Part shown: one piece after another, positions 4,507 through 19,618 of the stretch
Numbering within the stretch: the first letter of the stretch is position 1
Layout: the number at the start of each line of letters is the position of its first letter
From: Kaistella yonginensis
GTDB lineage: Bacteria; Bacteroidota; Bacteroidia; Flavobacteriales; Weeksellaceae
Assembly: GCF_030409525.1 (NCBI RefSeq)
Contig: NZ_JAUFQB010000022.1
Coordinates: 62,001-126,000 of the forward strand
Reading direction: 5' to 3'
DNA length: 64,000 bases
The notes under the pieces: generated by a model
What the model was told of the DNA's origin: nothing
Database searches by the model: none
Seen by the model: the letters and a program-made list of their open reading frames with translations, nothing else
Position numbers and translations under genes: made by a program

Positions 4507-5004
4507 ATGAAAATAAGTCAACTGACTCCAAGCGAAGAATTATTAATGAATGTTTTGTGGCGGCTCGATTCGGCATATATGCGAGAAATCATCGCGCAAT
4601 ATCCCGAACCGAAGCCTCATCCCAATACGATTTCCACCTTTTTGAAAATTTTGGTTGAAAAAGAATTTCTGAGCACCCATAAAGACGGCCGGGTTTTTCA
4701 ATATACCGTAGCCATTCCGTTTGATGATTACAGAATCTATTTATTGAAGCAGTTTTTGCAAGACTACTTTAATAATTCTTCTACACAACTCATCCAAATA
4801 TTGGCTGCAGAAAAGCTTTTAGATCATCAAAATCCTAAGCAGTTGTTTGAGATCAAATCATCGACAATTTCGCCACAAAGAAAAGAAGAAGACACTGACC
4901 TGACTGAATTTATCAACGAAATCATTTCGTTCAAGAGGAAGAAAAAAAAGAAAAAAAAGAAAAAAGGCGAAAAGAAAAAAAATAAAAAGAAAAAGAATTT
5001 GTAG
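4507..5004 (+). CDS. BlaI/MecI-family winged-helix repressor with polylysine tail
   Basis: This 165-residue protein begins with LTPSEELLMNVLW and continues through PHPNTISTFLKILVEKEFL and HKDGRVFQYTV. That is the winged-helix DNA-binding domain of the BlaI/MecI/CopY family, which represses targets until cleaved by a BlaR1/MecR1-type sensor protease. The dimerisation helix follows (about 80-115). The C-terminus is abnormal: residues 143-165 contain 17 lysines, nine in a row at 145-153, encoded by an A-rich tract. No BlaR1-like M56 peptidase gene is adjacent, which is unusual. Neighbours are the PAP2-like protein upstream and a DUF4153 membrane protein downstream. The family call is firm; target and signal are unknown. 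Confidence 0.8.
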   Translation: MKISQLTPSEELLMNVLWRLDSAYMREIIAQYPEPKPHPNTISTFLKILVEKEFLSTHKDGRVFQYTVAIPFDDYRIYLLKQFLQDYFNNSSTQLIQILAAEKLLDHQNPKQLFEIKSSTISPQRKEEDTDLTEFINEIISFKRKKKKKKKKKGEKKKNKKKKNL

Positions 5005-11367: not shown

Positions 11368-12891
11368 ATGCAAATAGATATTAGACCTTTGAAAATTGAG
11401 GATTATGAAGAACTCAGAGAGACCATGCAAAAAGCCTATCCGGCAATGTCGGAAAGTATTTGGTCTAAGACGAGTATAAAAAAATTGATAAAGCTCTTCG
11501 CAGACGGCCAAATCTGCATTACAGTTGATGACAAAATTGCAGCGGTTTGTCTTTCTTTAATTGTTCAATATGAACTGTACGGTGATGATCACACGTATAA
11601 AGAAATTACTGGGAATTACACCTTTAACACCCATTCTGACACCGGAAATGTGTTGTATGGAATTGAGGTATTTGTAGATCCAGAATTCAGAGAACTACGT
11701 TTAGCCAGGAGATTGTATGATGCCCGAAAAGAATTGTGTGAAAAACTTAATTTAAAATCAATTATCGTAGGGGGAAGGATTCCAAACTATCATTTGCACA
11801 GCAAAGATCTTTCGCCGCGACAATATATACAGCAGGTAAGAAAAAAAGAATTATACGATCCCGTTTTAAGTTTTCAGTTGGCCAATAACTTTTTACCAGT
11901 TCGCGTGCTAAAAAATTATCTGCCAGAAGATTTACATTCTGCCGAAAATGCGGTTTTGTTGCAATGGAATAATATTTATTATAGCAAGAAACCCAATACC
12001 ATGCAGGATTCGGTTATTCGGCTCGGTTTGGTTCAATGGCAAATGCGTCATTTTAAAGATATTGATGCGTTTTTTGAACAGGTTGAGTTTTTTGTGAATG
12101 TGATGGCCGATTACAAATCAGATTTCATCATGTTTCCAGAGTTTTTCAATACGCCTCTACTCGCTCCATTTAATGATTTAAGCGAAAGAGACAGCATGTT
12201 TAAATTGGCTGAACTTACGGAAGCCATTAAAAATAAACTTTCTCAGTTAGCGATTGGTTACAACATCAATATTATTGGTGGAAGCATGCCTTTAGTGGAA
12301 AATGAAGAATTGTACAATGTAAGTTATCTGCTTCACCGCGATGGCAAAATTGATGAACACCGCAAAGTTCACATTACGCCAAACGAGAAAAAATTCTACG
12401 GAATGAAAGGTGGCGATCAAATAAAAGTGATTGATACCGATTGCGGAAAAGTGGGCTTGGTCATTTGCTATGATGTAGAATTCCCAGAATTGCCAAGACT
12501 TCTGGCAGATCAAGGAATGAAAATTTTATTTGTTCCCTACCTGACAGATACGCAAAATGCCTACATGCGTGTTCGTAATTGTGCCTCTGCCAGAGCGATT
12601 GAGAACGAATGTTATGTTGCAATTGCGGGATGTGTAGGTAATTTACCGGGGGTAAATAATATGGATATTCAATATGGACAAGCTGCGGTTTTCACACCTT
12701 CTGATTTTGCCTTCCCATCCAATGCGATTAAAGGGGAAGCAACGCCAAATACCGAAATGACTTTAATCGTCGATGTAGATTTAAATTTGCTGAAAGAATT
12801 ACATCATTACGGCGCCGTACGAACGATGAGCGACCGCCGGAAAGATTTGTATGACACGATTTCATATCGTAATGATCCGGATGCCGAGTAA
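11368..12891 (+). CDS. GNAT acetyltransferase-nitrilase fusion protein
   Basis: This 507-residue protein joins two enzymes. Residues about 1-165 form a GNAT N-acetyltransferase domain, with the acetyl-CoA region around VFVDPEFRELRLARRLYDAR. Residues about 215-505 form a carbon-nitrogen hydrolase (nitrilase superfamily) domain with the full catalytic triad: E258 in FPEFF, K333 in HRKVHITP and C367 in VICYDVEFPE. Such fusions are a known family, but I know of no settled substrate; amide hydrolysis coupled to acyl transfer is the simplest guess. The gene follows anmK closely and ends just before a strong terminator. Confidence 0.85.
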   Translation: MQIDIRPLKIEDYEELRETMQKAYPAMSESIWSKTSIKKLIKLFADGQICITVDDKIAAVCLSLIVQYELYGDDHTYKEITGNYTFNTHSDTGNVLYGIEVFVDPEFRELRLARRLYDARKELCEKLNLKSIIVGGRIPNYHLHSKDLSPRQYIQQVRKKELYDPVLSFQLANNFLPVRVLKNYLPEDLHSAENAVLLQWNNIYYSKKPNTMQDSVIRLGLVQWQMRHFKDIDAFFEQVEFFVNVMADYKSDFIMFPEFFNTPLLAPFNDLSERDSMFKLAELTEAIKNKLSQLAIGYNINIIGGSMPLVENEELYNVSYLLHRDGKIDEHRKVHITPNEKKFYGMKGGDQIKVIDTDCGKVGLVICYDVEFPELPRLLADQGMKILFVPYLTDTQNAYMRVRNCASARAIENECYVAIAGCVGNLPGVNNMDIQYGQAAVFTPSDFAFPSNAIKGEATPNTEMTLIVDVDLNLLKELHHYGAVRTMSDRRKDLYDTISYRNDPDAE

Positions 12892-12899
12892 ATTAAAAT

Positions 12900-12931
12900 C
12901 CCGAAATTCTTCAATTTTCGGGTTTTTTTTA
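12900..12931 (+). terminator. Terminator after the GNAT-nitrilase gene
   Basis: The stem CCCGAAATT (12900-12908) pairs with AATTTTCGGG (12913-12922, one bulge) and is followed by eight T residues. It closes the operon starting at the outer-membrane protein gene. Confidence 0.85.
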
Positions 12932-12970
12932 TTAGTGACTTGGTTCCTATCATTTATAATTTTTTAATCT

Positions 12971-13828
12971 TCAATATTCATCATATTCTCCGGAAAGAAT
13001 GTACGCTGAGTGTTTATCTAAAAAATAAGTTTTCAGTAATTCGTATTGCTTCTGTTCTTTTTCGGTCGTACTATTTTTGGTAATGAGCGTTGTGGTTTTT
13101 TCAGCTTTATTGAAATAGTTGATGCTATTGATACTTATTTTGAAACCATCTAAACTAAAACCATAAGTAACTATTGCTGTTTGCCTTCCCTCTTCATTGT
13201 CCAAAGTATATTTTACACTGTACAAATTATCTTCTGGCGTTGATCCGAGATATTTCACATCATAGGCGTCTTTTAGAACAATATCTATGTATTCTGTCGC
13301 TAATTTTTTAGATTGCTTTCTGGTTAATTTTTCAGAAAAATACTTATTTACGCTGTCGTAATTTTGTGTTTGGTAAGTGTTGTCAGGTTTTTTGAGGGTG
13401 TTGTTTTCAGTTATCTTTAAACGTCTAAAAAAATTGGTGATCATTGCTTTTTCTAAATATTCATACAAATCTCTTTTTTCTTTCATCGTTTCATTTTCAG
13501 CGAGAGAAACTGTTTTTACATCATCAATACTAAAAGTAGATTCTACAAGGGTAACGAGTACTTTATCTTGTAAAAATTGATAATGCACTTTGGTAATTAA
13601 AGTTAATCCTACATGGTTTTTCTCCCATTTTTTTTCGAAATCGTATTTATTTTTGATGTTTAAAAGAGACATTTTAAATTTTGAAGCATGCATGTCTTCA
13701 TCATAATTTTTCACCTCTTTCATAACCGCATCTCTAGTTTGATTTTTTGAATAATAACCAATTTTGGTTGCAGAATAAGCGGTAAATGTGAATACAAAAA
13801 AGAATAGTATGGAAAATAGATTCTTCAT
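12971..13828 (-). CDS. Secreted paralogue A of a four-gene array (unknown)
   Basis: I do not recognise this 285-residue protein as a named family. It has a signal peptide (MKNLFSILFFFVFTFTAYS) followed by IGYYSKNQTRDAV, a motif shared with the two genes upstream. The body appears to be two similar halves. A YxF strand pair and a closing helix occur first as VHYQFLQDKVLVTL ... RDLYEYLEKAMITNFF and again as VTYGFSLDGFKISI ... KQYELLKTYFLDKH. The C-terminus DKHSAYI corresponds to DKHANYI in paralogue C. It is transcribed 31 bases after paralogue B, so both are one unit. Probably periplasmic or surface exposed; no Cys lipobox, catalytic motif or sorting domain is visible. Confidence 0.8.
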   Translation of the reverse strand: MKNLFSILFFFVFTFTAYSATKIGYYSKNQTRDAVMKEVKNYDEDMHASKFKMSLLNIKNKYDFEKKWEKNHVGLTLITKVHYQFLQDKVLVTLVESTFSIDDVKTVSLAENETMKEKRDLYEYLEKAMITNFFRRLKITENNTLKKPDNTYQTQNYDSVNKYFSEKLTRKQSKKLATEYIDIVLKDAYDVKYLGSTPEDNLYSVKYTLDNEEGRQTAIVTYGFSLDGFKISINSINYFNKAEKTTTLITKNSTTEKEQKQYELLKTYFLDKHSAYILSGEYDEY

Positions 13829-13859
13829 TTTATAAATTTTATTTTAAATAATTCAAAAT

Positions 13860-14717
13860 CTATTTCGGCGAAATATAATTTGCATGACCATCTACAAAAG
13901 AACTTTTCATAAATTCATAGAACTGTTTTTGGGGTTCTGTGCTGATGTACTTATTAACTATAACCTTGCTTTTATCAATATCTTTTATCACTTCTAAAGA
14001 TTTTATATAAATAGAAAAATCTTTGTTATAAAACTTATAGTTTACAATTATAGTGGTAGAAATTTCTCCTTCATCATGTTTAAAATATTTTACATCAAAA
14101 TTATCAGAATTTTTATCAGATAGAAAAGTTACCTGAAATGTAGGTTTGATAACATTTAGAATATATGACAGATTTTTCTCTTTCGCCATTTCTTTGGTTT
14201 GATTGGCTTTGTAGTTTCTTGTAACGAAATCATATCCATTTTCAATGAAAAGTTCTTTAGTCTCGTTTTTTACAGAAGCATGAGTTGGCTTTGTTTCGCT
14301 CAATTTTAAATTGGTAAAAAAGCTAAAAACAATCATGTTTTGTAAAGCTTCGTACAAATTTTTTTTCGTTGGATTAGAATCCTCTTCGGTAAGGTTAATT
14401 TTTGCTTTACCATCAGGAATAAGTCCTGCTTCCAAAATATGTATAACGACACGATCATCAAAAAATTGATAATGAACCCTAGCGGTTAAGACTGCATTAT
14501 TTGATGGATATCGCCAATCATTTTCATAATTGTATTTAGAATTACTTTTAACGGTAGCAATTTGAACACCTTTTGAAGTATACAGTTTTTCATATTCCTT
14601 TGCGTAATTCCAAACAGATTCTTTGGTTTGTGTACCCTCAAAATAGCCTGTTCTAGGTCTTGCAAAAGCAACAATACTAAAGAGACCAATGAAGAGAAAG
14701 ACCATTAATTTTTTCAT
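13860..14717 (-). CDS. Secreted paralogue B of a four-gene array (unknown)
   Basis: This 285-residue protein has a signal peptide (MKKLMVFLFIGLFSIVAFA) and then RTGYFEGTQTKESV, the family's N-terminal motif. The first half contains VHYQFFDDRVVIHIL and NLYEALQNMIVFSFF, the second VNYKFYNKDFSIYIKSLE and KQFYEFMKSSFVDGHANYI, the same order as paralogues A and C. It is the most divergent of the three full-length members in the middle region. A terminator upstream separates it from paralogue C, so A and B may have their own promoter, though none with a clear TAnnTTTG box was found. Function unknown. Confidence 0.8.
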   Translation of the reverse strand: MKKLMVFLFIGLFSIVAFARPRTGYFEGTQTKESVWNYAKEYEKLYTSKGVQIATVKSNSKYNYENDWRYPSNNAVLTARVHYQFFDDRVVIHILEAGLIPDGKAKINLTEEDSNPTKKNLYEALQNMIVFSFFTNLKLSETKPTHASVKNETKELFIENGYDFVTRNYKANQTKEMAKEKNLSYILNVIKPTFQVTFLSDKNSDNFDVKYFKHDEGEISTTIIVNYKFYNKDFSIYIKSLEVIKDIDKSKVIVNKYISTEPQKQFYEFMKSSFVDGHANYISPK

Positions 14718-14781
14718 AATTTTTATTCTTTTGTATTTTCTATTATGATTTTAAAATGAAAAATTTTGGTATTGGTATAAT

Positions 14782-14820
14782 AAAAAAGACACGTACTCTA
14801 TTGTAGATGAAACGTGCCTC
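14782..14820 (-). terminator. Terminator between paralogues C and B
   Basis: On the minus strand AGGCACGT (14819-14812) pairs with ACGTGTCT (14794-14787) through one G-T wobble, followed by a run of T. It lies about 40 bases past the stop of paralogue C. Confidence 0.7.
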
Positions 14821-14860
14821 TAATTATCATTGATAATATTTTATACTTTAAGCAATTTTA

Positions 14861-15715
14861 TTATGCAGCTCCCGGCGCAATATAATTGGCATGCTTGTCT
14901 ATGAAGTAATCTTTTATTAAGTTGTAAAATTTAGAAGTTGCTTCTGTGTTACTTTCTTTAGAAATTACCGTGTTGGTTTTGTTGCCTTTATGATAATAGT
15001 TAATCGATTTTAATTTGATGGTAAAACTTTTGGGACCAAATACGTACGTGACCACTGCTGTTGCAATACCGCTTTCATCTTCCAAAGTATATTTTATTTC
15101 TTGACTGTCTGCTGTTGAAGAACTAATGTAGTTTACCACATATGCTTTTTTCAAAACTTGATCTACATATTCTGCAGAATATTTTTTCCCAGCATCTTTG
15201 TTGTCAGTGGATAAGTAATTTGCAGTAATTTGATCATACGTTGCACCAGTTGTACGCGTAGGAGCAACGGAAGACGAAGTGGCTGTTTTTGTTTCAGAAA
15301 CTTGCAAATATTTAAAAAACACAGTAACCATAATGTTTTCCAAACTTTCATACACTTTTCTTTTTACTTCTGTTGGGTCATTTTCTTGCAAAGGAATTTT
15401 TGTTCCTTCTTTAGAGATAAACATGGCGTCGGACATGGTTACTACTACTCTATCATCATAAAATTGATAGCGCATTGTTGCGGCACTTGTAGCACCTGCA
15501 CTCATGTAAGACCAAGATTGGGAATAATCATATTTGCTGGTTCTCCTTTCTGCATCTTTGGAGTATTTGTACTCCAACATGTCTTTTTCAAATGTTTTTA
15601 CATTTTCCAAGACTGATTCTCTGGTTTGTCCAGCGGTATAATATCCTGTTCTGGATGCCGCAAATGTTACGATAGACAGGAATAATACGAATAATAGGGC
15701 GAGTGATTTTCTCAT
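14861..15715 (-). CDS. Secreted paralogue C of a four-gene array (unknown)
   Basis: This 284-residue protein has a signal peptide ending near FAAS, then RTGYYTAGQTRESV at 22-35. First half: MRYQFYDDRVVVTM (81-94) and a helix around VYESLENIMVTVFF (121-134). A Thr/Ser-rich linker (140-160) follows. Second half: VVTYVFGPKSFTIKLKSINY (221-240) and the closing helix FYNLIKDYFIDKHANYIAP (263-281). The linker suggests two folded domains joined flexibly. It looks like the best-conserved member, matching A and B in the N-half and D in the C-half. No enzyme motif is visible. A TBP-like DUF4468-type fold is conceivable but not established. Confidence 0.8.
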   Translation of the reverse strand: MRKSLALLFVLFLSIVTFAASRTGYYTAGQTRESVLENVKTFEKDMLEYKYSKDAERRTSKYDYSQSWSYMSAGATSAATMRYQFYDDRVVVTMSDAMFISKEGTKIPLQENDPTEVKRKVYESLENIMVTVFFKYLQVSETKTATSSSVAPTRTTGATYDQITANYLSTDNKDAGKKYSAEYVDQVLKKAYVVNYISSSTADSQEIKYTLEDESGIATAVVTYVFGPKSFTIKLKSINYYHKGNKTNTVISKESNTEATSKFYNLIKDYFIDKHANYIAPGAA

Positions 15716-15801
15716 GATAGTTTATTTTTGAGTTTATATTTTAATCAATGTTTCTTTTAAATTTAGAAAAGTTAGATATTTAACTGATTTTATTAATTCT
15801 C

Positions 15802-16245
15802 TCACTCATTTAAATCTGGGGCAATGTAATCAGAATGTAAAGTAAGCAGAAGTTTTTTTGTGTTGTCATAATATTCAGAAATCCATTGATCAGTACTATT
15901 GCTAGTAACTGGCATTACTTTGCCATTTATTTTGCTTTCATAATTCAGCGATTTTAATTTCAGGGTAAAATCGTTGGCTCTGAAATCGTAATTGATGAGG
16001 ATAATTGCAAAACCTAATTTATCTTCAACGGTATACTCTATATCGTAATTATTGCTTTCTGGATCTCCGATCGTTCTCAGGGTATATTTTTTAGATAAAA
16101 CATTCTCAATATATTCCTTAGAAAAGTTTTTCGCCGAGGTTATATTATCTTCAGCCAAATATTTTTTGGTCACCGATTCTTGCGCATAAAGAAAAATACA
16201 AGCGATAAAACTAAAAAATAGTAAATGTTTTTTCATTAGTAACAT
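15802..16245 (-). CDS. Secreted short paralogue D: C-terminal domain only
   Basis: This protein has its own signal peptide (MKKHLLFFSFIACIFLYAQ, best start the ATG at 16234-16236 rather than 16243-16245) joined directly to a domain equivalent to the second half of paralogues A-C. Corresponding segments are KYLAEDNITSAKNFSKEYIE (as NYLSTDNKDAGKKYSAEYVD in C), INYDFRANDFTLKLKSLNYE and the C-terminal LHSDYIAP. The N-terminal QTRESV domain is missing entirely rather than decayed, so it is a single-domain version and not a pseudogene. It is the first gene of the array in the direction of transcription. Confidence 0.75.
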   Translation of the reverse strand: MLLMKKHLLFFSFIACIFLYAQESVTKKYLAEDNITSAKNFSKEYIENVLSKKYTLRTIGDPESNNYDIEYTVEDKLGFAIILINYDFRANDFTLKLKSLNYESKINGKVMPVTSNSTDQWISEYYDNTKKLLLTLHSDYIAPDLNE

Positions 16246-16681
16246 TCTTTATGGTTATTGTATTCTTCAAAAATTTGTAAACTGAAAAAGCAAGCTAGCT
16301 TTATTTAAAATACTCAAGCAAATTCACGGTGCTAAAATTCATTAAACCTGATTTCTAAAATTCTCTAAAATTAAAATGATCAACTGTACTAAAAATATAT
16401 TGCACAATGATCGTTGAGCCGAACTTTATACTTAAACTTTAAATATAGCTTTAGTAAAAATAATTATAATTTTAATTCTGACAATAGGTGAAAACACCCT
16501 TTTTTGTTGAATTTCCTCCCATAATCTTTAAAATGTGATTAATGGTCTAACATTTTTGATAAATTATGTATTTTCAACCAAAAAAAATCTTAAAAAACAA
16601 CTTTATGAGTTTTATGTTTTAGCCGAAATAAATATGATCTATTTATTTTAGCAGCATTTTAAATAATCAATATAAGATATA
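16246..16681. other. 436-base intergenic region, nothing recognised
   Basis: Very AT-rich spacer between the paralogue array and the VOC protein gene. I see no credible reading frame, tRNA or perfect promoter. A short GGTG-AAAA-CACC hairpin followed by T residues (about 16487-16506, plus strand) exists, but no gene leads into it. Confidence 0.6.
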
Positions 16682-17092
16682 TTATGCAAAAATTTCATCA
16701 TTTTTTGAAAATGATTTGAATTCTAGAGGATTGCCACTATAGTCAAATACAAACATCGTCATTTGTTCCCCGGTTTTTCCTTCATATCTTTTATAGGGTT
16801 TTACGAGAAATTCAATGTTTTCAGTCCGTAATTTTTCCAATATTTTATTGAACAACTCCTTTTCGAGTAAACACCCAAAATGCGGAATCGGTACCATAAC
16901 TCCGTCTACATTTCCGCAATAATCCAAATCAGGCAAATTTTTACTGACATGGGCAGAAAGCTGGTTTCCGAAAAAATTAAAATCAATCCAATTTTCAGTA
17001 GAACGTCCTTCCTCACATCCCAAAATCTCTACATAAAATTTTCTGGTCGAATCGATATCTTTTACTTTGAAAGCGTAATGAAATGCTGACAT
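16682..17092 (-). CDS. VOC-superfamily (glyoxalase/bleomycin-resistance-like) protein
   Basis: This 136-residue single-domain protein begins FHYAFKVKDIDSTRKFYVEILGCEEG, written here as the family start HYAFKVKDIDSTRKFY followed by LGCEEGR. It continues with WIDFNFFGNQLSAHV, VPIPHFGCLL and MFVFDYSGNPLEFK. These are the paired beta-alpha-beta-beta-beta units of the vicinal oxygen chelate fold, with candidate metal ligands His (HYAF, SAHV) and Glu (PLEFK). Members include dioxygenases, glyoxalases and resistance proteins; the length and motifs do not settle which. It stands between the paralogue array and the TonB-dependent receptor and is probably transcribed alone. Confidence 0.8.
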   Translation of the reverse strand: MSAFHYAFKVKDIDSTRKFYVEILGCEEGRSTENWIDFNFFGNQLSAHVSKNLPDLDYCGNVDGVMVPIPHFGCLLEKELFNKILEKLRTENIEFLVKPYKRYEGKTGEQMTMFVFDYSGNPLEFKSFSKNDEIFA

Positions 17093-17155
17093 TCTTTTTA
17101 AATTAATAGGGAACTTCTACAAACCAGGGCTCTTTTTACTTTTTTCTTGGCTGCT

Positions 17156-19585
17156 TTATAACTTAAATTCTAACTTCACGTTGAAAAACCTGCCCGTCAA
17201 TCGCACGGGAACTGGATAATTATACCCTGAATTCACATCATTTACCCATTGGTTTGCAACGGTATTACTAATATTGAAGGCATTGAAAATCTGAACACCC
17301 AAAGTAAGTTCCTTAAAGTTACCCCAGAAACCACCGTTTACTTTATTGTCTTTTTGGTCGATAAAAACTTTAGATAAGCCAATGTCTACTCTTTTATAAG
17401 ACGGCAAAGTTCGCTGGTATTTATAAGGCGCTTCAAAATCTGGTTGGCCATTTTCATTTAAAGAAATTGGTGTTCCAGAGGGAAGTCCATTCGCATAAAC
17501 CAAAGTCAAATTCACGCGCATAGAGGGGAATTTTGGCATGTAATCTTGATAGAACATCGAGAATCTAAATCTTGGATCGGTCGGTCTTGGAATATCGCCG
17601 CGCCCATCAATATTTTCATATACTCTGGCATAACTTGCAGAAACCCAAGAATCAACTCCTGGTACAAATTCGCCAAATAATCGGGTATCAATTCCGTACG
17701 CATATCCTTCAGAATTATTTTCACCAGAATATCTAATTCTTACATTATCTAAATAATAAGGAATCAAATGATCCATTTTCTTATAATACAATTCTGTAGT
17801 TAACTTAAAGGGACGATCAGCCATTTGAAATTCATAATCATTGGCTAAAATAATTTGCATCGAACGTTGTGATTTGATATTTGGATTAAAGTTTCCATCA
17901 ACATCCTTTATTTCTTTATAGAACGGCGCTTGGTAATAAACTCCACCAGATACTTTGAACAACATGTCCATATCCCAGTTTGGTTTAACGGCAATTTGAG
18001 CCCTTGGCGAAATAATTGTTTCATCATTAAAATCCCAATGAGCAGCACGAACTCCAGCATTGATAAATACGCGGTTGTCCCCCCAATAGAATTTTTTAGA
18101 ATATTGCATATATCCAGAAAGTCGGGTCGGTTCAATATGATTGGCGCCAGAGATACTGTAGCGCAAGCGCAGTTGCGACGGATCCAAAGTCCCAGGATTT
18201 ACATAAGTCCTAGGCGTACTGTAGCCTAAGGAATCTACCAATTGCCATTCATTCGTAAAATCTCTTAGGTTTTCTTTTTCAAATTTCAATCCCAGTTCAA
18301 AATCTGTATTTACATCAGGCGAAAATTTTGTTTTCAGTTGTGCACCGTAGGTTTTAACCAATAAATCATTTCTGGCGTGATCGATTTGTCCACCAACATC
18401 ATAAGACGTAATGGGTGCTCCGGTAATCGGATCGAATGTTTGTAACAGATAACCAGAAGCGATGGAATAATATTCACGCTCACGATTTTGGTAAGCGAAA
18501 TTATCTAAAGTAAATGCCCATTTTTTATTGGGTTTAAAATTAATGGATGCCGTACCCATCATATTTTTATACTTGTCGTCCTCTTTTCCATTGTAGAAAA
18601 CGCTCAGTTTCAAAGGGGATTGTAAGGTTCCGAATTCCACTTCTTTCACTTTCGGAATCATTTCATAATCGTTTTTACTCCAATATCCAATGAAAGAAAA
18701 ACCCCATTTATCATTTAATTTATAATTAATATAGGTTTGGAAATCCAGGTATTGCGGATTAAAATCGGTGTCTTCATTCAGTGTATTTAAAACCAAGTTG
18801 GTATTTCTGTACCGTCCGGAAATCATGGCAGATAATTTTTTATCCTTGGAGGCGAATCCCGTAGTGAGTCTTCCACCAATCAAGCTCGCTTCTCCAGAAA
18901 GTTCAAATTTTGTAGGCTGTCTGTAATAAATATTTAGCGCAGATGACATTTTATCGCCATATTTCGCTTCGAAACCACCGGCGGAAAAGTTAATGGCTTT
19001 TACCATATCTGGATTAATGATGCTCAACCCTTCCTGCAAAGAATTGCGAATTAAAAAGGGGCGGTAAATTTCTATATCATTAATATAGATTAGGTTTTCA
19101 TCGTAATTTCCGCCTCGCACCATGTATTGCGAAGAAAGTTCTGCATTAGAGTTTACGGAAGGCAGCGTTTTCAGAAGACCTTCAACTCCGCCGGAAAGAG
19201 ATGCTACTTGCTGTGCTTCTTTCGCAGAAATTTCCATCGAAGTAAGATCGGTTACTTTTGGTTTTCCTTTCTTTTGAAAAACAACCTCTTCAATCTCGGT
19301 TTCTCTTTCCGCTTTGACAAAGAGAACATTGATGTTTTGAACTTTGGGTGTACTTTTAATATTTTTATTAAAGCCCCTGAAACTCGCTTTTTGAACCGAT
19401 AAAAGTTGCTCCGATTCTGCGAGCGGAATTTTTACAAAACCTTTATCGTCTGTTGTAAAGGTTTGATTGTTATAGGTAACATTGGCTTCAGAAATAGGCT
19501 GCCCATCTTCATCTAAAACTTTCAGATTAATTTGCGCAAAGGCAAAAATTGGCAGAACCGACAGGAATAAAAGGATTTTTTTCAA
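17156..19585 (-). CDS. TonB-dependent outer-membrane receptor
   Basis: This protein of about 809 residues imports an unknown substrate across the outer membrane using TonB energy. After a signal peptide (KKILLFLSVLPIFAFAQ) comes a carboxypeptidase-like regulatory domain (INLKVLDEDGQPISEANV). Next is a plug domain with LSGGVEGLLKTLPSVNS and YMVRGGNYDENLIYINDIEIYRP, and then a 22-strand-type barrel ending GRFFNVKLEFKL. The open frame has TTG codons at 19615 and 19585. The second, TTG AAA AAA, starts a standard signal peptide and is preferred. kdsA lies 33 bases upstream on the same strand, so the receptor is probably read from the kdsA promoter. No SusD-like partner is present. Confidence 0.9.
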   Translation of the reverse strand: MKKILLFLSVLPIFAFAQINLKVLDEDGQPISEANVTYNNQTFTTDDKGFVKIPLAESEQLLSVQKASFRGFNKNIKSTPKVQNINVLFVKAERETEIEEVVFQKKGKPKVTDLTSMEISAKEAQQVASLSGGVEGLLKTLPSVNSNAELSSQYMVRGGNYDENLIYINDIEIYRPFLIRNSLQEGLSIINPDMVKAINFSAGGFEAKYGDKMSSALNIYYRQPTKFELSGEASLIGGRLTTGFASKDKKLSAMISGRYRNTNLVLNTLNEDTDFNPQYLDFQTYINYKLNDKWGFSFIGYWSKNDYEMIPKVKEVEFGTLQSPLKLSVFYNGKEDDKYKNMMGTASINFKPNKKWAFTLDNFAYQNREREYYSIASGYLLQTFDPITGAPITSYDVGGQIDHARNDLLVKTYGAQLKTKFSPDVNTDFELGLKFEKENLRDFTNEWQLVDSLGYSTPRTYVNPGTLDPSQLRLRYSISGANHIEPTRLSGYMQYSKKFYWGDNRVFINAGVRAAHWDFNDETIISPRAQIAVKPNWDMDMLFKVSGGVYYQAPFYKEIKDVDGNFNPNIKSQRSMQIILANDYEFQMADRPFKLTTELYYKKMDHLIPYYLDNVRIRYSGENNSEGYAYGIDTRLFGEFVPGVDSWVSASYARVYENIDGRGDIPRPTDPRFRFSMFYQDYMPKFPSMRVNLTLVYANGLPSGTPISLNENGQPDFEAPYKYQRTLPSYKRVDIGLSKVFIDQKDNKVNGGFWGNFKELTLGVQIFNAFNISNTVANQWVNDVNSGYNYPVPVRLTGRFFNVKLEFKL

Positions 19586-19618
19586 GGCTGGAAATTTAGA
19601 TTTTAAAGGTAACAAAAA

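Follow-up and report, generated by a model that had tools for sequence, protein, structure and literature searches.

Four exported proteins encoded in tandem in Kaistella yonginensis, built from a predicted TBP-like domain and possibly orphaned accessories of envelope sensing

The closest described counterparts of the proteins considered here are two Bacteroidota proteins of solved structure, a DUF4468 protein (Pfam PF14730) of Bacteroides ovatus (PDB 4e6f) and the TBP-like protein BDI_3606 of Parabacteroides distasonis (4jhy). A full-text search for DUF4468 found two papers, each mentioning it once, and none of the matches listed for TBP-like exported proteins, TPR histidine kinases and helix-grip or BamC proteins was recognisably concerned with the family described below. 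In a window of 64,000 nucleotides from Kaistella yonginensis (contig NZ_JAUFQB010000022.1, positions 62,001 to 126,000 of the forward strand; the window denotes this whole stretch), four neighbouring minus-strand genes, designated A, B, C and D in order of transcription, encode exported proteins that match no named sequence family. In silico analysis of this array points to seven copies of one TBP-like domain carried by old paralogues, and suggests, with a probability that we put at roughly 0.4, that the proteins are periplasmic accessory proteins of envelope sensing which have been orphaned in this genome.

All four open reading frames (ORFs) of the array are intact, are separated by 86 bp (A-B), 143 bp (B-C) and 31 bp (C-D), and specify proteins of 26-37% pairwise identity. 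A protein search with B retrieved D, C and A with E-values of 8.6e-53, 1.1e-49 and 5.9e-19, respectively, and by this comparison the homology of the four is far above chance. A hydrophobic N-terminal leader was evident in each of the four proteins by a crude hydropathy measure, which is not a signal-peptide predictor. The description given in an earlier note, made from the DNA letters, of four neighbouring exported paralogues that share a C-terminal block, with an N-terminal block common to three of them (B, C and D), was thereby borne out.

The two blocks resemble one another. When the N and C halves of an alignment of six sequences (A3) were compared by hhalign, they matched over 125 columns with 97.1% probability and an E-value of 1.2e-10, as against 0.46% for the best of 100 column-shuffled controls and 0.07% for the reversed control. 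AlphaFold2 models, built on shallow alignments of 5 sequences, show one and the same succession of elements in A and in each half of B, namely a strand, a helix, a run of strands and a long helix. The half-versus-half match and the matching element order indicate that the blocks are two copies of one domain of ~125 residues, that B, C and D are two-domain proteins and that A is a single C-type domain, so that the array is predicted to hold seven domain copies. The model of A has a mean predicted local distance difference test score (pLDDT) of 85.1 and a predicted TM-score (pTM) of 0.76; that of B has a mean pLDDT of 80.7 and a pTM of 0.49, with the arrangement of its two domains uncertain. Two one-domain proteins from a related genome (G303) match the N half with 99.4% and the C half with 94.3% probability.

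Ranked by Z-score, the best solved matches of the B model were 4jhy (Z 10.9, 124 residues) and 4e6f (Z 10.7, 126 residues), and those of the A model were again 4jhy (Z 11.4, 126 residues) and 4e6f (Z 11.4, 128 residues), all at a root-mean-square deviation (rmsd) of 3.5. The next other fold scored 9.9 for B, which under the one-unit rule of the tool ties with 4e6f, and 9.8 for A, from which both structures stand clear. Foldseek ranked the 4jhy and 4e6f proteins first and second for A and 12th and 13th for B, with a probability of 1.00 and TM-scores of 0.31-0.57; for A it also listed YwmB (2fpn) and KICSTOR chains at a probability of 0.97-1.00. The acyl-ACP thioesterase FatA, at the top of the Foldseek list of B by E-value, was set aside at a TM-score of ~0.13 and an rmsd of ~18 over the two-domain model. 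On these models the fold of the array domain is a known one, TBP-like as in 4e6f, rather than the undescribed fold that had been entertained earlier.

Membership of DUF4468, a first guess from sequence pattern, agrees with the fold but fails at the level of sequence. PF14730 was not listed by hmmscan at E-values up to 5 for any of the four proteins, a PF14730 search of the K. yonginensis genome returned 0 matches, and hhalign against 37 DUF4468 ORFs drawn from the loci read gave probabilities of 0.13% for the N half and 0.64% for the C half. DUF4468 proteins likewise start with leader-like stretches (judged by eye); they differ from the array proteins, three of which hold two domains, and in a C-terminal DW, carried by 6 of the 8 DUF4468 proteins whose C terminus could be read and absent from all four array proteins, a distinction that was observed in this analysis and does not come from the literature. 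The one-domain G303 relatives reach 15.4% against DUF4468, which makes a remote tie between the array and that family conceivable. Sequence libraries gave nothing significant for the four proteins in Pfam (where D alone drew a row, DUF5406 at E 0.91, well short of its cut-off), NCBIfam (a single row, ExtJ for B, at E 0.37), PADLOC (best E 0.023) or PHROGs (best E 0.032), and a search of the PDB by sequence gave no match for B and one chance-level row (E 0.12) for profile A3. The earlier statement that no named family fits therefore stands for the sequence libraries and falls for the fold, and four nameless genes can now be grouped as a family whose repeat unit is defined and whose fold is known.

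Relatives of the array are patchily distributed. Protein searches with B found none in any of 35 congeners, nor in the other 24 genomes of a 60-genome set. A profile search of 320 genomes of the family gave matches at E ≤ 0.01 in 14, and these were strong and full-length in three, namely K. yonginensis itself, Frigoriflavimonas asaccharolytica (G300), on which the literature search found no paper, and G303. Across the order, matches were obtained in 7 of 395 genomes at E ≤ 0.01, and across the class in 5 of 395 at E ≤ 0.001, with partial matches only outside the K. yonginensis genome in both cases, and by the count of the tool 1833 of 2000 genomes were reached in all; weak profile matches were counted as family only where the locus was read (G001, G313, G326, G303, G377, G103 and G527). 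The variable copy number foreseen in the earlier note was confirmed, with four genes here, one in Frigoriflavimonas, and one two-domain and two one-domain genes in G303. B shares 73% identity with the product of the only Frigoriflavimonas gene, and over 126 aa A shares 59% identity with the C-domain part of the two-domain protein of G303. Distant one-domain relatives occur within the genus, where a G001 query found itself and a G022 protein (81%), that is 2 of 60 genomes; such G001-type proteins match the N half with 65.0% and the C half with 3.3% probability by hhalign, and have the loosest tie to the array among the relatives used. No array relative was detected at the sensitivity used in plasmids and phages (tblastn) or in IMG/VR (pattern scan).

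A tree of 16 domains recovered the pairing of B with the Frigoriflavimonas protein (support 90/94 for the C domain and 98/97 for the N domain) and that of A with the G303 protein (93/92); of these pairs just the N-domain pair passed the marks of the tool, 95 and 80, and 6 of the 13 inner branches were open. Sequence identities agree with the tree, in that A and B each resemble a gene from a different genus more than the paralogues beside them, from which it follows that the paralogues would predate the genus, and the array is best read as a set of old paralogues and not as a recent local expansion or a fresh product of an arms race. A has probably lost its N domain, the reverse being possible. 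Non-synonymous (dN) and synonymous (dS) divergence between B and its Frigoriflavimonas counterpart was 0.174 and 1.247 (dN/dS ~0.14), and between A and its G303 counterpart 0.377 and 1.857 (dN/dS ~0.20), dS values of 1.2 and 1.9 being near saturation. Both orthologous pairs look constrained, with no sign of diversification on those branches. Between the four paralogues, dN/dS was 0.36-0.56 at dS values of 1.2-2.0, too saturated to use.

B, C and D contain no cysteine at all and are therefore not lipoproteins. A contains one, at position 16 inside its leader, which fits the usual lipobox poorly, so that A could conceivably be a lipoprotein. As judged from leaders and cysteines, the array proteins are most likely soluble and either periplasmic or released.

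A possible partner is suggested by the surroundings of the relatives. In four genomes of the order (Frigoriflavimonas, G303, G103 and G377) domain relatives lie within ~2.6 kb of the genes of an orthologous two-component system, which pairs a histidine kinase containing a TPR region with a LuxR-type regulator. In Frigoriflavimonas all three genes, the B-type one included, are adjacent and co-oriented, the kinase gene starting 140 bp after the B-type gene and overlapping the regulator gene by one base; in G303 two one-domain genes lie upstream of the kinase gene on the same strand, the nearer one 0.5 kb off; and in G377 and G103 the domain genes are found ~2.5 kb upstream of the kinase gene in same-strand gene runs. 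The kinases of the last three genomes are 41-44%, and the regulators 58-68%, identical to those of Frigoriflavimonas. With the Frigoriflavimonas kinase as query, 15 of the 320 family genomes matched at E ≤ 1e-80, and the loci of 14 of these were read (G320 was left out; locus L142 is cut by a contig end). The three closest, at 390 bits or more (Frigoriflavimonas as the source of the query, G303 and G103), have domain relatives nearby. G377, which belongs to another family, was added as the fourth case by the order-wide profile search, and its operon is related to that of G103. Pfam assigns TPR, HisKA_3 and HATPase domains to the Frigoriflavimonas kinase; a hydrophobic membrane segment near residue 350 is present in all four kinases and a leader was flagged in three, features which suggest that the TPR region should face the periplasm.

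At the hemN-secDF site, where Frigoriflavimonas has its set, G303 carries its A-type gene (locus L083) with no kinase; the two genes next to this one have relatives in the operons of G103, G377 and G527. Loci L085, L086 with L165, and L087 are related runs of exported genes in three genomes, one with an RHS repeat match and one near DUF4424; the L085 and L087 runs carry a TPR kinase and a LuxR-type regulator, and G527 (L165) has unrelated genes, one of them DNA adenine methylase-like by eye. The L135-L139 loci, all from one genus, hold more distant pairs of TPR kinase and LuxR-type regulator, near which lie other co-oriented, exported-looking proteins, and no domain relative was detected there.

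Under the reading that we favour at about 0.4, the array proteins would be small periplasmic alpha/beta modules that bind a cell-envelope ligand or the TPR region of a sensor and, by presenting a ligand or partner to that sensor, may feed or tune envelope sensing. In K. yonginensis, which is without that kinase subfamily, the array would represent an orphan set that works with another partner or consists of stand-alone binders, the four modules being kept as a set in what may be two transcription units. Any signalling role for the array is an extrapolation from its relatives. That the wider, unnamed periplasmic TBP-like family, single or tandem, serves as the signal-presenting partner of exported-TPR sensor kinases across the Flavobacteriales, with modules swapped, multiplied and orphaned by individual genomes, is a more far-reaching proposal that we regard as doubtful. 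In the exported TPR sensor region, the analysis supplies a testable partner for exported proteins of a type whose function does not seem to have been studied.

Several observations weigh against a sensory role. The K. yonginensis genome has no match to the Frigoriflavimonas kinase at E ≤ 1e-40, and no window ORF of at least 120 aa resembles the kinase or the regulator at E ≤ 1e-5, so that the array differs from the kinase and regulator module of Flavobacteriales in having neither component nearby; it also lies at another chromosomal site than the kinase-linked relatives, and kinase, regulator, domain gene and hemN were all absent from the 15 kb read around the secDF of this genome. At the 11 more distant kinase loci (315 bits or less) a domain relative was found in none, the best hhalign probability among ORFs of at least 100 aa within 5 kb being 10.4%. 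The kinase is present at four of the nine domain-relative loci that were read at length and is missing from the DNA read at the other five, namely the window, L083, L146 (G022), L147 (G001) and that of G527 (L086 with L165), whose operon, akin to that of G103, runs into unrelated genes at the place expected for the kinase. Independent support is moreover thin: the query itself came from Frigoriflavimonas, the operons of G103 and G377 are of one type, and it was at these very loci that the association had first been seen. The kinase-less operon of G527 led us to lower our estimate for the sensing reading from 0.42 to 0.40 and, by a similarly small step, that for the family-wide proposal, and to raise slightly that for plain binders.

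The five kinase-less loci are what would be expected if the array proteins were stand-alone periplasmic or secreted binders of a niche-specific ligand, their relatives' proximity to kinases reflecting nothing but shared operons of exported proteins. This is a serious candidate, to which we give somewhat less than even odds, and Bet v 1-like, BamC and other two-layer folds, among which many proteins bind ligands or partners, are matched by the models of A and B at lower Z; what speaks for a link to the kinase is that the two closest family orthologues of the Frigoriflavimonas kinase besides the query's own, in G303 and G103, both have a domain relative nearby. The earlier note had suggested either variation against a changing partner (host, prey, phage or competitor) or a multi-component surface structure. 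A variation set would fit the copy number that differs between genomes, the low identity of the paralogues and the AT-richness of the array as a whole, but orthologues of A and of B exist outside the genus, each pair under apparent constraint, which marks the differences as old; PADLOC gave nothing significant and the plasmid, phage and IMG/VR collections held no relative at the sensitivity used, and we consider such a set improbable.

Subunits of one surface structure might be encoded by just such a cluster of four co-oriented paralogues with leaders, but Frigoriflavimonas manages with a single gene, no other exported gene was seen in the ORF list for the block that holds the array (12971..17092), Pfam found no surface-structure domain in any of the four, and this suggestion, for which nothing was found, seems very unlikely. 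Least probable of all, to the point of being scarcely credible, is a role in outer-membrane protein assembly as an accessory like BamC. This lipoprotein of the BAM complex has an N-terminal helix-grip domain whose two-layer alpha/beta arrangement does resemble the array models and is among the next best folds (Z up to 9.4 for B and 9.5 for A); these values are, however, below those of the TBP-like and DUF4468 structures and near the range of common arrangements, the distribution of the array family is patchy, and in place of the cysteine-bearing leader of a lipoprotein B, C and D have no cysteine and A a poor lipobox.

How the array came to its present site was considered by comparison with congeners, of which 15 of 35 were read in the DNA adjoining the nitrilase-GNAT gene. 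In 14 of these 15 loci this gene and a convergent TonB-dependent receptor gene are neighbours, with a gap of at most 136 bp in 11 of the 14, mostly with a terminator-like inverted repeat (by eye), and a gap of 0.7-1.1 kb with other cargo in three, consisting of a RelE/ParE-like pair in two and a small lipoprotein-like protein in one (by eye). In the window the corresponding gap (12891 to 17156) extends over 4.3 kb and is occupied by the array together with a VOC-like gene. The G+C content of the array is 30.3% as against 35.7% for the window, and 5 of 304 overlapping windows are at or below the array value; gene B taken by itself is at 35.6%. A repeat search of 12860-17200 turned up no convincing direct repeat at the flanks, and no integrase was seen among the block ORFs of at least 80 aa. 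The array and the VOC-like gene were probably gained as a block at a variable spot, loss elsewhere being also possible.

This nitrilase-GNAT/TonB receptor spot, where the cargo differs among species (L070, L071 and L072; the array here), has the look of a minor insertion hot spot. In G016 (L068), the fifteenth locus and the one with the closest nitrilase (96%), other genes follow the nitrilase gene and there is no TonB receptor in the 10 kb read, so that the region is rearranged there. At L074:11193-11941, beside the variable spot, the TonB receptor match falls into two pieces ~600 bp apart, with a possible insertion near its end.

As regards expression, the hairpin in the gap between B and C has a folding energy of -18 kcal/mol (z -4.8; 0 of 200 shuffles equally stable) and runs into a T-run; a simple terminator scan, with a loop limit of 8 bases, did not list it. 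This stability and the T-run make a two-unit layout plausible. The hairpin is a probable terminator, and two transcription units, A-B and C-D, are likely; the parting of D-C from B-A asserted earlier is accordingly supported in its stable hairpin and T-run, with termination itself deduced from these. The Bacteroidota-type -7 box has the consensus TAnnTTTG, and as none was found within 250 bp upstream of any of the four genes, their promoters were not placed. A scan of 12800-17200 against Rfam at gathering thresholds gave no match. The features are collected in Table 1.

Table 1. Coordinates in the window of the array genes, the intervening hairpin and the surrounding features
Feature	Position	Strand	Evidence or remark
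Gene D, exported protein, two tandem TBP-like domains (N + C), 285 aa	12971..13828	-	ORF, alignment A3, hhalign of alignment halves
Gene C, exported protein, two tandem TBP-like domains, 285 aa	13860..14717	-	ORF, alignment A3; 31 bp upstream of D
Hairpin + T-run between B and C, probable terminator	14770..14840	-	Folding energy vs shuffles; would part A-B from C-D
Gene B, exported protein, two tandem TBP-like domains (model elements 22-137, 162-279), 284 aa	14861..15715	-	ORF, model, identity to Frigoriflavimonas asaccharolytica L006:8001-8867
Gene A, exported protein, single C-type domain, 147 aa	15802..16245	-	ORF, model, identity to G303 L083:8394-9227
VOC-like gene (name by eye)	16682-17092		Within array-containing block
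Block of array + VOC-like gene	12971..17092	.	No counterpart seen at this position in the 15 congener loci read
Nitrilase-GNAT gene	11368-12891	+	One flank of block
TonB-dependent receptor	17156-19615	-	Other flank of block

Elsewhere in the window, at 4507-5004, a small ORF, judged by eye to resemble a repressor, has a long run of lysines at its end; slippage at this site or an artefact of sequencing may account for it.

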